Assembly (NCBI GenBank): GCA_000990305.1
Contig: LBPR01000001.1
Location: forward strand, 1-35,844
DNA from: Candidatus Roizmanbacteria bacterium GW2011_GWC2_34_23
GTDB lineage: Bacteria > Patescibacteriota > Microgenomatia > UBA1406 > GWC2-37-13
Length of the DNA stretch: 35,844 nucleotides
Direction of reading: 5' to 3'
Each line of letters opens with the position of its first letter. Within the stretch, counting starts at the first letter, position 1. The notes beneath the pieces are model-generated. The model was not told the origin of the DNA. It saw nothing but the letters and a program-made list of their open reading frames with translations, and ran no database searches. Shown piece after piece: positions 3,688 through 32,608 of this stretch. Made by a program: the position numbers and the translations under genes.

Positions 3688-4493
3688 TTTCCGAACAAGT
3701 AATTTTTTATTAAATGAAGCCTTGTTCTAATAGGGGCGTATTTCAAGCCAAATATTAAACGATTTTTTTTTTGATATTTTTGGTGGATAGGGGAGCCGGA
3801 GCCGCCGGTTGACTGGGCATTTTTGTGCCAGATAATAATCTTAGGATTATAGAACAATTTAAAACCGGCTATTTTCGCCCGTTCGCAGAAGTCGGAATCT
3901 TCAAAATATAAAAAATATTTTTCGTCCCAAAAGCCAATCTGATCAACAACTTTTTTATTAAAAAATAACATACATCCGGTAATAAAATCAGTTTCCTCAA
4001 ATTTTTCATATTGGTGATTATCAACTTCGTCAACTCCCCGATGAGAAGTATAGACATTTTTCCAATCATTAATGCCTCCGGCATACCAAAGAATTTTACC
4101 AATATCTTTTTTTTGATATTTTTTGTGGTATTCATATCCGGGTGCATAATAAATCTTACCGCCAAAAATATCTGCCTTTTCAAATCCTTTTTCGGCAGAT
4201 AAGGAAAAATTTTTATCAAAAAAAATATCATTATTGATTGCACAAAATTTATCAATTCTCTGACTGATAAAATATTTAGTACCTTCATTAATGCCATACG
4301 CATACCCATTGTTCGGTAGAGATTGGAGAACTACTTTCATAGGATATTTACCGATTTTAAAATCTTCCTTTTTTGTTGAAACGTCAGCAATGTAGACAGA
4401 AATATTTTTAGCATCATTAACGGTGGCAAGAGAGTCGAGAAATTCTCGAGTGAGTTGATATTGGTTGTAGTTAACAGTTATTAATCCAATCAT
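3684..4493 (-). CDS. GT2 family glycosyltransferase (rhamnosyltransferase-like)
   Basis: 269 residues, a typical soluble GT2 (GT-A fold) length. Seen: N-terminal TVNYNQYQLT (Rossmann-like nucleotide-binding start), AINNDIFF near residue 90 in the DXD position, then TGCMLFF, GFWDEKYFLYFEDSDFCERA and a His-rich WHKNAQS tail. This is the classic WbbL/rhamnosyltransferase pattern, in which EDxDxxxR supplies the catalytic base region. It should transfer a sugar from a nucleotide-sugar donor at the inner face of the membrane. A TATAAA box lies 8 bases upstream of the ATG, next to the hairpin element at 4508-4573. The gene overlaps the next one by 4 bases. Confidence 0.88.
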   Translation of the reverse strand: MIGLITVNYNQYQLTREFLDSLATVNDAKNISVYIADVSTKKEDFKIGKYPMKVVLQSLPNNGYAYGINEGTKYFISQRIDKFCAINNDIFFDKNFSLSAEKGFEKADIFGGKIYYAPGYEYHKKYQKKDIGKILWYAGGINDWKNVYTSHRGVDEVDNHQYEKFEETDFITGCMLFFNKKVVDQIGFWDEKYFLYFEDSDFCERAKIAGFKLFYNPKIIIWHKNAQSTGGSGSPIHQKYQKKNRLIFGLKYAPIRTRLHLIKNYLFGK

Positions 4494-4507
4494 AAATAAT
4501 TTTTATA

Positions 4508-4573
4508 AAAGCTCAATATCGAAATTTTTTAACGGAAAACAACAAACCATAAAAAATTTGATATCTTCGCTTT
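4508..4573. repeat. Hairpin element, type 2 core, copy 1
   Basis: An imperfect inverted repeat: the left arm starts AAAGCTCAATATCGAAA and the right arm is ATATCTTCGCTTT, with an A/T-rich core containing CGGAAAACAACAAACC. It is nearly identical to 23726-23795 in the core and shares its two ends with the three type 1 elements. It lies directly upstream of a GT2 gene. Confidence 0.75.
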
Positions 4574-4579
4574 TTGAAA

Positions 4580-5451: not shown

Positions 5452-6882
5452 TTATTTAAACAACAGTTTAACTTCTTCAATTAAATTAATTTTAAATATT
5501 AGATATAACGTCAAGTAATAAGTCATTATACCGCCAATAATTGGAATAAGTAAAGACGGTAAAAATGTTACAAATTGATTTAACAAAAAAACAAATAAAC
5601 CCATTACTAATCCGGAAAACAAAAAAGGAATAATATTCTTTATAAAAGAAAAAGGAACGATTTTTTTTGCTTGTTGTTGGACTAACATAAATGATGAGGA
5701 TAAGATTACAAGAGTTAGAGGAAATCCATAAACACCATATGATTTTGTAAGGATTGGAGTCAGTATCCAAGTAAGAGCGGTCCAGCCAACCATAAAATAA
5801 AATGATATTTTAACTTTCCCAATTCCATTTAAAAGATTTATAAAAGGCGTTGAATAGGAAGAAAAAAGTGAAGAAAGACAGAATAAATAAAAAAGAGGTA
5901 AAGCACTTTCCCATTTAGAGTAACGAGGAATTAACTGAACCATTTTACCCATAATTAATGATAGTCCTAAAGTTGCCGGAATAATCAATGCCGACTGATA
6001 ATAGATGATTTTTTCAATTAATCTCGAAAGACGGTCTTTTTCATTTTGAAACCGTGAGAAGAGCGGAAAGAGAACTCTGGAGAGTGAGTCCATAATAATT
6101 CGAATGGGTGATTCGGCCCATTTTTTGGCCCAGCCAATGTATCCGAGGGCTTGAAAACCAAGGACTTTTCCAAGATATAGAGTTAGCAAATCGTCTTTGA
6201 CTAAAGCTAAAAAAGAACTCATTTGAAAGGGAACTCCGAATGACAGAAGTTTTTTTAAAGATACAATATTGATTCCGACTTTTGGTTTCCAAAACGAAAT
6301 TTTATAAATTAGAATTACTCCAATTAACGATCGAAGAATAACGGCCACTGTAAAACTGTTTAAGCCCCAACCCGCTAAGGCCAAGATAATAACAGATAAA
6401 TAAAAGATGGTGTTTTCAACCACTTGAACAATAACAATTTTTTGAAACTGAATTTTTTTTTCCAAAAATATTGATGGGATTGTTTTGAGAGATGAAAAGA
6501 AAAAAGAAGCGAGCAGAGCCTGATAAAGGAATTTACCTTCAGCAGGTAATTTATAAAAAGAAACTATAAAAGGACTGGCAAAAAAACCGATGATAACAAT
6601 AGTGATAATTAAGATTTGTTGGACAGTAAAAACTGTCATAACTTCGCGGTCTTCGATTTCCTTTTTTTGAATCAGTGAGGCGGCAAGACCAATATCTGAA
6701 AAATAATTAAGGATTGCTATAATTGACAAAACTGTAAAATAAATACCAAATATTTGCGGGGAAAGCAGGATTGTTAAAACCAGATTGGCAGCAAAGCCAA
6801 GGATGGCGGAATATCCGCTTTGAAAGAAAAGGCTTAGGGTTGAGAGAATGGTCTGTTTTTTGAGTTGATTTTTATCTTCCAT
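5452..6882 (-). CDS. Wzx-type polysaccharide flippase (PST/MOP superfamily)
   Basis: 476 residues with about 14 hydrophobic segments and no large soluble domain. The N-terminal block (LSLFFQSGYSAILGFAA, then SPQIFGIYFTVLSI and SDIGLAASLIQKK) is typical of PST-family oligosaccharide translocases. These flip undecaprenyl-diphosphate-linked glycans across the membrane. The gene begins an operon with the GT2 gene downstream (2-base gap), and uppP is in the same window, so assembly, flipping and carrier recycling are all represented. No clear -10 box sits close to its ATG. Confidence 0.85.
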   Translation of the reverse strand: MEDKNQLKKQTILSTLSLFFQSGYSAILGFAANLVLTILLSPQIFGIYFTVLSIIAILNYFSDIGLAASLIQKKEIEDREVMTVFTVQQILIITIVIIGFFASPFIVSFYKLPAEGKFLYQALLASFFFSSLKTIPSIFLEKKIQFQKIVIVQVVENTIFYLSVIILALAGWGLNSFTVAVILRSLIGVILIYKISFWKPKVGINIVSLKKLLSFGVPFQMSSFLALVKDDLLTLYLGKVLGFQALGYIGWAKKWAESPIRIIMDSLSRVLFPLFSRFQNEKDRLSRLIEKIIYYQSALIIPATLGLSLIMGKMVQLIPRYSKWESALPLFYLFCLSSLFSSYSTPFINLLNGIGKVKISFYFMVGWTALTWILTPILTKSYGVYGFPLTLVILSSSFMLVQQQAKKIVPFSFIKNIIPFLFSGLVMGLFVFLLNQFVTFLPSLLIPIIGGIMTYYLTLYLIFKINLIEEVKLLFK

Positions 6883-28905: not shown

Positions 28906-29029
28906 TAAATAACAAATGACAAATAACAAACATCAATTGAATTTTAAATAATAAATAACAAATGTTTTAAACGTTTTAAAATTTAATATTTGTTATTCAA
29001 TTGTTATTTGAAATTTATTATTTGTTATT
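28906..29029. repeat. AT-rich repeat of the AACGTTTTAAA type, copy 2
   Basis: Many AAATAACAAAT-type units, a central palindrome TTTTAAACGTTTTAAAA and inverted units on the other side (TTATTTGTTATT). It fills the gap between the NUDIX gene and the fusion gene and supplies the last residues and stop (NNK) of the latter. Confidence 0.65.
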
Positions 29030-30568
29030 AACTCCAATTGCTTCCTTGATATTATTGTATCCATCTTTTTCCAACAACTCCTCCAACTCTAGATTGATCT
29101 GTGATATCAACTGCGGCCCCTGGAAAATCATTCCCGTTATTAATTGGATTAATGATGCGCCGAGTTTTATTTTTTCATAAGCATCCTGACCATTAAAGAC
29201 TCCGCCACAGCCGATGACGATCAAACGTGACCCATATTTTTTATAGGCAAGTTTTATCAGTTCATTTGATCTTGGCGCGCAAGGTTTGCCGGAAAAATAA
29301 CCAACCTTAAATTTTTTCACTTCCCGCCTGTCAAGTAATAGACTATTTCTGTCCTTGAAAAGATTGCCAATGATCACTCCCTTAATTATTTTATATTTAC
29401 TAATGACGTTTAACAAAGAAACAAATTCTTTGTTGGAAATAGAAATTGGCATTTTGATAAATATCGTTTTTTTTATTTTCAATCTATCAATAGATTGAAA
29501 CAATTGATTAATATTTTCAGGTTTATTAAAATCAACGGCGGTATTAATTAAATTGGGACAACTGATATTAAGTTCATAATAGCTGTTTTTCACTTTGGCT
29601 TTTTCAAATATTTTAAAAGCATTTATAGTATCTTTTATTGCTTCATTGGTATTTTTTATTAATTCGTTGTTGGACATACCAATACTTATTCCCAGCGGAA
29701 TCTTATAGTTTAGTTGGGATAGTTTTTGGGAAATTTTCTCTACTCCTAAATTCTTAAATCCTTTATTAACCATCAGAGATCGGGATTTGGGCAGTCGTCC
29801 TAATCGGGGTTTTGGATTTCCACCATATGACATATTAGTGATCGTTCCAACAGTTTGAAATCCAAAACCGAGAGAGTAGAGAACCTGAGTCAACTTTGCG
29901 TTATAATCGAAACCAGCCGCTAAGCCAATCGGGGCAATAAAATTAATTCCCGAGATTTTTTGTTTTATTTTTAATGATTGATAGTTCAATTTCCAATTAA
30001 AATAATTTTTGATAAAAGTTTTTCCTATTAATTCTCCCCGGGAAACCATCAAGTTATGAATAAATTCCGGATCAAGTAAAAATAAAAGAGGCTTCATTAT
30101 TTTTTGATAAACAAAAGCAATAATATTTAGACGAAGAGAAAACCTTTCTTTATAAAAAATCCTGGAGACAAGAAAAAAAATTGCAAAACTAATAATTGCA
30201 GATAAAGTACAGTAAAGACAGATACTTTTCAAAATTACTAATTGAACGTACATAAAATATAAAGAAAAAATCGCCCCGATCATAGATTGGAGAATGAGCC
30301 AATAGGCGGATATCTTTTTTCTGTAAACGGCCAGTAAAATTATTGCGGTCAAAAGCAATAGATATTGAACGACACCAAATACGGCCAACGGAACACCAAA
30401 CATGACCGAATATGAACTTCTTAAAACCTTGCCACAGTCTGAGGCGATCGGAAGTAGTCGGTTAATCGTGCAGGGGGGGATTACTTGCTGATAATGTTCA
30501 AATGTCAAATAGGCGGCATCGGCAATTCCAGACAGCGCTAATAAAGCCAGCAGAAAAAACTTTTTCAT
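29018..30568 (-). CDS. VKOR-dihydroorotate dehydrogenase fusion
   Basis: 516 residues with two domains. Residues 1-135 are a VKOR-type membrane bundle: an N-terminal helix, Cys33 and Cys45, SSYSVMFGVPLAVFG, and the active-site pair Cys117-x-x-Cys120 (ICLYC). Residues 160-505 are a dihydroorotate dehydrogenase, which oxidises dihydroorotate to orotate with FMN: LDPEFIHNL, GLAAGFDYNAKL, GFGFQTVGTIT, NPKPRLGRLP (all class 2-like), SCPN with Cys337 as the base, and IGCGGV for FMN phosphate. Class 2 enzymes use Ser here; Cys is the class 1 base. TATAAT is 7 bases upstream of the ATG, so it has its own promoter although it follows the B12-type genes closely. The fusion would tie pyrimidine synthesis to the quinone and disulfide systems at the membrane. 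Confidence 0.88.
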   Translation of the reverse strand: MKKFFLLALLALSGIADAAYLTFEHYQQVIPPCTINRLLPIASDCGKVLRSSYSVMFGVPLAVFGVVQYLLLLTAIILLAVYRKKISAYWLILQSMIGAIFSLYFMYVQLVILKSICLYCTLSAIISFAIFFLVSRIFYKERFSLRLNIIAFVYQKIMKPLLFLLDPEFIHNLMVSRGELIGKTFIKNYFNWKLNYQSLKIKQKISGINFIAPIGLAAGFDYNAKLTQVLYSLGFGFQTVGTITNMSYGGNPKPRLGRLPKSRSLMVNKGFKNLGVEKISQKLSQLNYKIPLGISIGMSNNELIKNTNEAIKDTINAFKIFEKAKVKNSYYELNISCPNLINTAVDFNKPENINQLFQSIDRLKIKKTIFIKMPISISNKEFVSLLNVISKYKIIKGVIIGNLFKDRNSLLLDRREVKKFKVGYFSGKPCAPRSNELIKLAYKKYGSRLIVIGCGGVFNGQDAYEKIKLGASLIQLITGMIFQGPQLISQINLELEELLEKDGYNNIKEAIGVNNK

Positions 30569-30571
30569 TGA

Positions 30572-31858
30572 CTACATTATACCTTTATGGATTATCAGAG
30601 ACAAGAGACCTAACCCAAAAAATATAATTGTTTGAATAGGGAATTTTTTATTTGTTTTGGTCGTTTTTATTCCCAAGATTTGGCCGGGTGTGGGGGTTGG
30701 ATACGGTAGAGACGCAAAATTTTGCGTCTCTACATCGGTCGGAGCAGGTGTTAATGTAGGGATTGGAGTTGAAGTTGGTGTTGGAGTTGAAGTTGGTGTT
30801 GAGGCTTGCCCCGCGGAGTCTTGACGAAGTGGGGTTGGTGTTGGAGTATTGGTCGGTGTCATTGTTGGTGTGACAGATAAGGTCGAGGTTGGAGTAAGAG
30901 TTGCTGGATCGAAAATTTTCAGGATCCAGCTTTTTCCGGAGAGACTGATGATAGCTTGAGCAGTCGTCGTCGAATTTGAAATTAACATATTTAATCCATA
31001 ATCAAAAGCTAAGAACCCTCCGTCGCTTGGCGACTGTTGTGAAATAAGCCAATTTTTAGTCTGTGCCGATACCGTTGAATCATTCATATCAAGAACATTA
31101 AAAGCCATCAAAACCCAACCAGTCGTATCAGAATCACTTGATCCATAGTAACCGTAACCGCCATCACCGTTTTGATTTACCAAGAGATAATTTTTAGCAC
31201 GGGCGATTGCATCATCAAGAATAGGATTCGTCAATCCGTTGTTTTTGGCGGCAACGAGAGACTGGATGGCTGCTCCGGTCATATCAGAGGAGGTAGAATA
31301 CCAGGCGCATTCGGGAGCCGAATAACCAAACCCTCCGTCAACTGGATCCTGTTTGGCAATAAGAAAATTCAAAACATCCTGTTTTATTTGTGTAGATGAA
31401 GTGGAACCGGCAGCAATTTCGGCCAGCAATCCGAAAATATCGTCGTTTAAAGAGCAACTATCTCCGATCTGACCGTTTTCAAAAAAACTTTCAAGACGGG
31501 TGACATAATTTATTCCTTCATAATTTGTTGGATCGCCACCCGTCGCAACAATTGCCAATATTCTTGTCTCCCAGTCGGTCGCCGCTGACGGTTCAGTTGG
31601 GACATTAGTGATCATAAAATCTTGTAAAGAAATAGATGGGTTTTTGACGGTTGAAATATCAACACCGTTGGCGGCAAAGGCAATGGCTGACCATTGTGAC
31701 GGAGCCGAAAATCCATTGGTTATCCTACCTGTAGAATCTTGTTGTGATTTTAAATAATTTAAAGCATTATCAACAACGACGTCTGCCGAAACAATTCTAA
31801 CAACAGTTACAAAAAATAAAATAAACAATAATAAAATTAAAAATTTAAAGTTTTTCAT
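30572..31858 (-). CDS. Surface-anchored alpha/alpha-barrel protein, transcobalamin-like
   Basis: 428 residues. Signal peptide (1-25, ending VSADVV), then repeats of the prenyltransferase/squalene-oxidase or transcobalamin type: ALNYLKSQQDSTGRI (about 32), FLIAKQDPVDGGFGY (about 165), YLLVNQNGDGGYGY (about 226) and WLISQQSPSDGGFLAF (about 268). A Pro/Thr-rich stalk of about 80 residues and a C-terminal membrane helix (IIFFGLGLLSLII) follow. Part of the stalk comes from palindromic repeats. It starts 1 base after the stop of the DUF4430 gene, downstream of a cobalamin riboswitch. I infer the barrel half of a B12-binding pair; a cyclase role is unlikely because the protein is exported and lacks a DXDD motif. 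Confidence 0.82.
   Translation of the reverse strand: MKNFKFLILLLFILFFVTVVRIVSADVVVDNALNYLKSQQDSTGRITNGFSAPSQWSAIAFAANGVDISTVKNPSISLQDFMITNVPTEPSAATDWETRILAIVATGGDPTNYEGINYVTRLESFFENGQIGDSCSLNDDIFGLLAEIAAGSTSSTQIKQDVLNFLIAKQDPVDGGFGYSAPECAWYSTSSDMTGAAIQSLVAAKNNGLTNPILDDAIARAKNYLLVNQNGDGGYGYYGSSDSDTTGWVLMAFNVLDMNDSTVSAQTKNWLISQQSPSDGGFLAFDYGLNMLISNSTTTAQAIISLSGKSWILKIFDPATLTPTSTLSVTPTMTPTNTPTPTPLRQDSAGQASTPTSTPTPTSTPIPTLTPAPTDVETQNFASLPYPTPTPGQILGIKTTKTNKKFPIQTIIFFGLGLLSLIIHKGIM
30706..30733. repeat. GTAGAGAC-family palindrome, copy 5 (in coding sequence)
   Basis: Perfect 28-bp palindrome, GTAGAGACGCAAAA plus its reverse complement. In frame in the stalk of the transcobalamin-like protein, encoding VETQNFASL. 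Confidence 0.9.
30804..30834. repeat. GC-rich repeat in the stalk of the transcobalamin-like gene
   Basis: GCTTGCCCCGCGGAGTCTTG followed by ACGAAGTGGGG, with CCCC/GGGG ends. Much richer in G+C than its surroundings. In frame, encoding LRQDSAGQAS between Pro/Thr runs. Confidence 0.6.
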
Positions 31859-31859
31859 A

Positions 31860-32429
31860 TTAGTTTCCTAGATAGTCCCATTCAACGTTATCTGCGTTGT
31901 TAACTTTTATATAGCTACAACCTTGACTAGGGGACTGACCGTTGACCTTGAAAGTCCACCAGACAGAATTTTCCTTGCCAACGCTATTGATCTGATAGAC
32001 GGCATTTGTACCAAGATCATTGTTGTATCGCATATTAAGACTTTGTATTTTTCCTTGTGAAAGAGCTTGACTCAAAACATCACATTGATTAACGCCATTT
32101 GATAAATCAATAGTTCCAACTGACGAACCGCCGATTGACAGCGAAACCTTAAGACCTTGTCCCTCCTTCGCTGAAGCTTCGGCGGGCGATGGGGTGTTAG
32201 TTGGTTGTGGAACTGGTGTATTTGTTGGATTAACAATTGCTTGAGTTGGTTCGGTTGTAGGTGTCACTGCCTTTGAAATTATTGGAGATAAAATAACTGC
32301 TGGAACTTTTGTAGGAATTAATATTTTTTTTACTACAACGGGCTTTGTTTTGTTTGAATTATAAAAAGTAGCTCCTGATAGAAGAAAAAAAATAATCGCT
32401 AAAATTTTAAAAAAATTTCTTTTAAACAT
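31860..32429 (-). CDS. Membrane-anchored DUF4430 protein (transcobalamin-like beta domain)
   Basis: 189 residues from the ATG at 32429 (MFKRNFFKIL). One N-terminal membrane anchor, then a stalk rich in Pro and Thr (PTTEPTQAIVNPTNTPVPQP), an insert PAEASAKEG from a palindromic repeat, then a C-terminal domain of about 90 residues: KVSLSIGGSSVGTIDL, DVLSQALSQGK, VWWTFKVNGQSPSQGCSYI and a final WDYLGN. This matches DUF4430 (PF14478), which corresponds to the C-terminal beta domain of transcobalamin and intrinsic factor. The cobalamin riboswitch upstream strongly supports B12 as the ligand. A weak AAGG lies just before the ATG, after a short hairpin. Confidence 0.86.
   Translation of the reverse strand: MFKRNFFKILAIIFFLLSGATFYNSNKTKPVVVKKILIPTKVPAVILSPIISKAVTPTTEPTQAIVNPTNTPVPQPTNTPSPAEASAKEGQGLKVSLSIGGSSVGTIDLSNGVNQCDVLSQALSQGKIQSLNMRYNNDLGTNAVYQINSVGKENSVWWTFKVNGQSPSQGCSYIKVNNADNVEWDYLGN
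32161..32194. repeat. GC-rich palindromic repeat in the DUF4430 gene
   Basis: Core CGCTGAAGCTTCGGCG (32169-32184) is a 16-bp near-palindrome with one mismatched pair. In frame, encoding PAEASAKEG between stalk and ligand domain. Confidence 0.7.
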
Positions 32430-32436
32430 AGACCTT

Positions 32437-32457
32437 AGACTTTTCGCTCGAAAGTCA
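32437..32457 (-). promoter_or_regulatory. Hairpin just upstream of the DUF4430 start (possible expression platform)
   Basis: GACTTT-loop-AAAGTC with 6-bp perfect arms, 8 bases before the ATG and next to the AAGG. It may be the regulatory end of the riboswitch, controlling translation start. Confidence 0.4.
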
Positions 32458-32473
32458 ATAAAAAAAGGTAAAA

Positions 32474-32561
32474 ACAAAGGTAAGTTTTCTGGCTTTAACA
32501 GTTACGGCATAGCCACGGATTTATCACCGTGATTTCCTTTTAAGACTTGCGTCCCCTTTGT
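32474..32561 (-). ncRNA. Cobalamin riboswitch (short type)
   Basis: On the minus strand. The ends pair perfectly (ACAAAGG with CCTTTGT, 7 bp). Inside are GGAAATCACGGTGATAAATC, CCGTGGC, GCCGTAACTGT and AAAGCCAGAAAACTTACC. These follow the order and spelling of the conserved core GGGAA-TCCGGTG-AAATCCGG-GCTG-CCCGCAACTGT and the B12 box (rAGyCmGgAgACCkGCC). At about 88 bases it is shorter than classical AdoCbl forms, more like the compact class. It lies between a good promoter and the DUF4430 gene. Confidence 0.85.
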
Positions 32562-32579
32562 CAAACATTCACATTTTCA

Positions 32580-32608
32580 ACTATAATCCATCAAATTTTA
32601 TTTGTCAA
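32580..32608 (-). promoter_or_regulatory. Sigma70 promoter of the riboswitch transcript
   Basis: TTGACA, 17 bases, TATAGT on the minus strand. The start would fall about 10 bases before the riboswitch, giving a 5' leader of about 140 bases, the one clear long leader in a window full of leaderless genes. Confidence 0.8.

Follow-up and report, generated by a model that had tools for sequence, protein, structure and literature searches.

A riboswitch-associated gene pair in a Roizmanbacteria genome as a likely two-chain surface receptor for cobalamin

The genome of Candidatus Roizmanbacteria bacterium GW2011_GWC2_34_23 (GWC2_34_23) contains, on the minus strand of the window analyzed here (the whole stretch of 35,844 nucleotides), an operon that likely encodes a two-chain, surface-anchored cobalamin receptor for B12 uptake, with its synthesis switched off by cobalamin. 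One protein carries a DUF4430 domain and the other is a predicted (alpha/alpha)6 toroid. Surface capture of vitamin B12 is very probably the role of the pair, because related genomes place it beside a B12-transporter-like protein and B12-using genes, and by analogy the locus most likely works like a transcobalamin. The interpretation offered by a first-pass annotation of this DNA, that the two proteins join on the cell surface to trap cobalamin, is supported. The genome is small (0.7 Mb) and only about 80% complete, so that absences from it carry little weight; the nearest named relatives of this patescibacterium are Roizmanbacteria, Levyibacteriota, and Gottesmanbacteria.

Read along the minus strand, the promoter is followed by an RNA element, a hairpin, a Shine-Dalgarno sequence, the DUF4430 gene, and the toroid gene:

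32608-32580, minus strand: sigma-70-like promoter, TTGACA-17-TATAGT, matching 11 of 12 consensus positions
32555-32474, minus strand: AdoCbl-II (class-II cobalamin) riboswitch aptamer, 82 nt, by Rfam RF01689 (full model)
32438-32458 (approximate limits), minus strand: putative regulatory hairpin with a CGAGC loop, ahead of an AAGG Shine-Dalgarno sequence, by conservation in congeners
31860-32429, minus strand: DUF4430 gene, 189 aa, ATG start, by ORF and Pfam PF14478
30572-31858, minus strand: toroid gene, 428 aa, by ORF and AlphaFold2 fold

The promoter had been picked out in the first-pass annotation, and its assignment holds: both hexamers are retained in three congeners, where the spacer is 18 nt long and variable in sequence. 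The two ORFs are, as had also been stated, separated by a single base. The gene after the toroid (29018-30568) encodes a VKOR domain fused to a quinone-type dihydroorotate dehydrogenase; VKOR-dihydroorotate dehydrogenase-like ORFs are found near the DUF4430-toroid pair in congeners too.

A cobalamin riboswitch had been proposed for the leader, with a covariance-model search as the check. A scan of 251 bases with the full set of 4227 Rfam families gives a full-length match of the element to AdoCbl-II (RF01689), at 35.8 bits (E 3.7e-7). This is 0.7 bits below the gathering score of 36.5, and a curated-threshold Rfam scan of the whole window therefore misses it, returning tRNAs only. The general Rfam Cobalamin model scores 31.0 bits (cut-off 31.5), its sole match in the genome. 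The element is common to GWC2_34_23 and three congeners, whose AdoCbl-II copies score 36.2, 34.5, and 32.9 bits, and congener G002 has a compensatory change in P2, from GAC-GCAA-GUC to GUC-GAAA-GAC. It resembles RF01689 in matching the whole model and in that a regulatory hairpin precedes the start codon, but differs in its slightly sub-threshold score and in its short P2 hairpin, with a GNRA loop, beside the closing stem. Folding energy of the leader is unexceptional (z -0.25), so the riboswitch assignment rests on the covariance match and not on stability.

The hairpin adds a second conserved feature. AdoCbl-II matches were found in 75 of 116 genomes (GWC2_34_23 and 115 relatives; E-values from genome searches apply per genome). 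Downstream of 48 of the 79 matches in relatives, CGAGC occurs within 60 nt, with 1.9 such cases expected, and it is mostly the loop of a CCC-CGAGC-AGGG hairpin covering the Shine-Dalgarno sequence. In the GWC2_34_23 leader the loop is retained and the Shine-Dalgarno sequence is just outside the stem; in three congeners the CGAGC-loop hairpin is identical letter for letter. This pattern suggests a translational cobalamin switch, which, judging from the riboswitch class, would be off with ligand. It is extremely improbable that the leader lacks riboswitch activity and that the two genes simply encode an ordinary surface set, for adhesion or host contact: the Rfam score just under threshold and the unremarkable folding energy would fit such a reading, but the hairpin is conserved, the P2 change is compensatory, and position and context are kept in 11 of 13 loci with the pair.

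The AdoCbl-II class also has other neighbors in this CPR class, including metE and a gene followed by cobQ. The metE gene encodes the cobalamin-independent methionine synthase and is a B12-repressed kind of gene; in one congener (L054:1298-3577, G001:C12) it lies behind an AdoCbl-II riboswitch in a genome with no DUF4430 or DUF6580 match. A switch at G033:C5 is upstream of an ATP-cone ORF and a small-subunit ribonucleotide reductase domain; it was left out as support because the gene behind it is not NrdJ. In the class as a whole, 65 of 79 AdoCbl-II matches precede one uncharacterised family, whose members mostly span about 360-540 aa and share six conserved cysteines on the C-terminal side (e.g., L076 G008, L077 G030, L051 G083). 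The count of 65 loci comes from an iterated profile; a motif-based count, which was too strict, gave 13. The members scanned have no Pfam match at cut-off, and one is followed by cobQ. In these bacteria, B12 regulation seems to act mainly on this Cys-rich family. At L189:7717-10095 and other loci, the Cys-rich riboswitch gene or a B12 operon is often followed by genes for a protein of ~140 aa and a TraG/TrwB-like ATPase of ~790 aa.

The DUF4430 protein begins with a hydrophobic anchor, followed by a Pro/Thr stalk and a transcobalamin-beta-like domain at about residues 88-189. The membrane anchors of both proteins and the signal-like start of the toroid protein were assigned by eye. Pro/Thr-rich stalks had been described for both proteins, and the Pro+Thr content is indeed 33% in the DUF4430 stalk and 51% in that of the toroid. 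The description of an N-anchored DUF4430 domain with a transcobalamin-like fold is likewise borne out, at 40.6 bits to Pfam PF14478 (cut-off 23.8). AlphaFold2 models the domain with moderate confidence (ten-residue means 64-84), and in structure comparison the best 14 matches all belong to transcobalamin, haptocorrin, or intrinsic factor (Z 10.2-11.0), with other beta-grasp proteins next (Z 8.3); Foldseek agrees on the match to the carrier beta domain. An alignment profile of the DUF4430 domain had no matches among PDB sequences, so the tie to transcobalamin itself is made by fold comparison alone. Sequence and fold both place the DUF4430 half in the transcobalamin beta-domain clade.

The toroid protein has a signal-like N terminus, the toroid at about residues 25-310, a Pro/Thr stalk, and a C-terminal hydrophobic anchor; LPxTG-like motifs near the C terminus of two distant homologs are in keeping with surface display. 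AlphaFold2 predicts an (alpha/alpha)6 barrel (pLDDT 86.5, pTM 0.87), and the model aligns along the full carrier alpha domain, with Z 21.8 to intrinsic factor (2pmv_A, 239 residues aligned), 21.6 to transcobalamin (4zrp_A, 250 residues aligned), and 21.4 to haptocorrin. These are not its closest structures, terpene cyclases (Z 25) and epimerases (Z 23) scoring higher. The alpha/alpha fold seen in the first-pass annotation thus stands as an alignment to the carrier alpha domain, but not as a preference for it: the predicted fold fits a B12 carrier without singling one out. Against Pfam, the toroid reaches none of the cut-offs (SQHop_cyclase_C 25.1, cut-off 26.1) and matches no cobalamin-binding family, and its sequence profile matched only cyclases and prenyltransferases. 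Sequence does not allow this half to be placed in the carrier family, nor are the carriers its nearest structural neighbors.

A terpene cyclase was considered and rejected because the catalytic DxDD motif is missing from the GWC2_34_23 toroid; it is missing from 12 of the 14 toroid sequences in all, and in the L182 protein the DxDD lies inside the stalk. More broadly, the toroid could be a surface enzyme or sugar binder, resembling either terpene cyclases or epimerases/glycoside hydrolases, that only happens to be regulated together with B12 genes. The top structural scores and the only sequence-profile matches point in that direction, but the near-universal absence of DxDD and the strict pairing of the toroid with DUF4430 and B12 genes across families make it very unlikely.

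That pairing emerges from searches with a toroid profile, which matched in 11 of 374 genomes of the class and at seven loci in named records (including Roizmanbacteria, Levyibacteriota, and Gottesmanbacteria) that partly overlap the class-genome loci. Together these give 14 distinct toroid loci, 13 of them with upstream sequence. In all 13, from several families, the gene immediately upstream of the toroid is DUF4430. The first-pass annotation had made its reading depend on related pairs lying near B12 riboswitches, and a cobalamin-type riboswitch is upstream of the pair at 11 of the 13 loci (GWC2_34_23, G013, G015, L182, L184, L185, L189, L191, L192, L193, and L194), with none at L183 and L190. 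DUF6580, discussed below, is in the cluster with the pair at eight loci (L181, L182, L184, L185, L189, L191, L193, and L194), followed by PduO at L184 and L189 and by a member of the PF01497 periplasmic-binding-protein family at L185; at L192, an NrdR-NrdJ-DUF6580-PduO operon faces the pair. At L193 the toroid is flanked by two DUF4430-like genes (3777-4574 and 5796-6404), the second with a lipobox-like start.

In GWC2_34_23 the corresponding B12 genes are elsewhere. The statement that no transporter is encoded with the pair is correct for the window, but not for the genome: contig 7 has an NrdR-NrdJ-PduO-DUF6580 operon, and its DUF6580 supplies the transporter candidate missing from the pair locus. 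A genome search for B12-dependent enzymes had been suggested, and it is this operon that provides one, NrdJ, at 489 bits to TIGR02504 of NCBIfam (cut-off 400), along with PduO, also above its cut-off. The NrdJ gene (L157:2656-6063) includes an intein carrying a LAGLIDADG domain; the gene of several congeners is shorter, at about 780-800 aa. Many sister genomes have DUF4430 without a toroid, in the order NrdJ-PduO-DUF4430-DUF6580, whereas the contig 7 operon has no DUF4430, which sits with the toroid instead. DUF6580 is present in 29 of 30 genomes with DUF4430 and in 5 of 86 without (Fisher 4e-21, uncorrected for relatedness, with significance inflated by shared ancestry).

A profile of 15 DUF6580 sequences matched a single PDB chain, 6FNP_A (E 2.8e-5); the GWC2_34_23 protein as a single sequence gave only spurious matches and did not find it. 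The chain carries the label "Membrane protein"; its length, and its resemblance to a small membrane protein, suggest that it is CbrT. The 6FNP entry is the cobalamin transporter ECF-CbrT, in which CbrT is the S-component; cobalamin binding by CbrT is at 9 nM, and the gene is inside an nrdJ-cbrS-cbrT-pduO cluster in Lactobacillus delbrueckii (PMC5997447). The patescibacterial operon is similar in that NrdJ and PduO adjoin a CbrT-like membrane protein, but the similarity of DUF6580 is distant, and EcfT was not found in GWC2_34_23 or in most DUF6580 genomes. The search for btuCDF or ECF genes that the first-pass annotation had proposed thus yielded neither a FecCD nor an EcfT (CbiQ-family) match in the ~80%-complete genome, only the CbrT-like DUF6580; among 34 DUF6580 genomes, six have a CbiQ-family match and 28 have none. 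DUF6580 may work solitarily, as proposed for BtuM, or with an unrecognised ECF module. BtuM is a possible precedent for S-component-like cobalamin uptake without an ECF module, but no surface toroid is described for it (PMC6072759), and the DUF6580 profile returned no BtuM match in the PDB.

The operons without a toroid bear on the division of labor within the pair. DUF4430 could conceivably bind a corrinoid by itself and deliver it to DUF6580, with the toroid as a helper and docking or wall-spanning surface. Most related operons do have DUF4430 and DUF6580 without the toroid, by its title PDB entry 5np4 is the human transcobalamin beta domain on its own, bound to cyanocobalamin, and in structure the toroid shows no preference for B12 carriers over other toroids. 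At every locus with upstream sequence, however, the toroid accompanies DUF4430, at most of them in one riboswitch operon, and its fold spans the whole carrier alpha domain, and a role for DUF4430 alone is judged quite unlikely.

The ligand might also be another corrinoid, for example cobinamide, or a cobamide whose lower ligand differs from that of cobalamin. The riboswitch and gene context indicate corrinoids generally, and CbrT takes cobinamide too (PMC5997447). In the ~80%-complete GWC2_34_23 genome, no matches were found to CobS, FecCD, or the B12-binding domain. The lack of CobS, for lower-ligand assembly, suggests B12 auxotrophy, and incomplete corrinoids would hardly help the cell if NrdJ did not accept them; a receptor for something other than cobalamin is accordingly unlikely.

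The likely working of the locus as a cobalamin receptor can be outlined as follows. When B12 is scarce, the leader would be open and the class-II riboswitch would let the mRNA be translated. The toroid protein would be exported and held by its C-terminal anchor, and the DUF4430 protein by its N-terminal one, both on flexible stalks. If transcobalamin is a guide, one cobalamin would be sandwiched between the cavity of the toroid and the beta-grasp domain and then handed to the CbrT-like DUF6580, which would take it across the membrane. PduO would then adenosylate the cobalamin, and NrdJ, a class II ribonucleotide reductase, would use it for making deoxynucleotides. When B12 is plentiful, the leader would bind cobalamin and translation would stop. 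Tentatively, and with rather less confidence than for a receptor as such, this could amount to a distinct B12 system of Patescibacteria, in which a split, two-anchor transcobalamin closes on cobalamin and delivers it to a CbrT-like DUF6580 that operates with no EcfT dedicated to it, the whole being controlled by class-II riboswitches.

Some elements of this scheme are already known. Burroughs et al. (2007) recognised the transcobalamin beta domain in bacteria, noted that it can be fused to a toroid, and suggested by structural analogy that the two parts of such a fusion bind B12 together; the word riboswitch is absent from that paper (PMC1796856). Those bacterial SLBB/transcobalamin-like toroid fusions have the same two domain types at the cell surface, but in one chain, while the patescibacterial version is split and riboswitch-controlled. 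Animal transcobalamin, intrinsic factor, and haptocorrin likewise combine an (alpha/alpha)6 toroid with a beta-grasp domain, and both halves align with them by fold; in GWC2_34_23, however, the halves are two separate membrane-anchored polypeptides, with the beta-type gene before the alpha-type. Surface lipoproteins of gut Bacteroides are also reported to capture B12 ahead of a transporter (PMC6143338), but these are outer-membrane bacteria. Toroid-DUF4430 fusions as proposed B12 binders (2007) and the nrdJ-cbrS-cbrT-pduO cluster of Lactobacillus thus have precedence. In the literature covered, which took in few subscription journals, no description of DUF6580 or of transcobalamin-like proteins with riboswitches in bacteria or CPR was found, and no earlier report of the split, membrane-anchored, riboswitch-controlled form in Patescibacteria or of its link to DUF6580.

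Patescibacteria are thought to depend on their neighbors for most nutrients, by uptake systems that are mostly uncharacterised. For one costly vitamin, this locus offers a concrete and testable route, and it points to a supply of cobalamin for the B12-dependent ribonucleotide reductase that these genomes encode. Three poorly described families (this group of DUF4430 proteins, the anchored toroid, and DUF6580) are tied to cobalamin by independent lines. Transcobalamin-like halves that can be expressed separately would also be useful for studying carrier assembly and the origin of the animal proteins.
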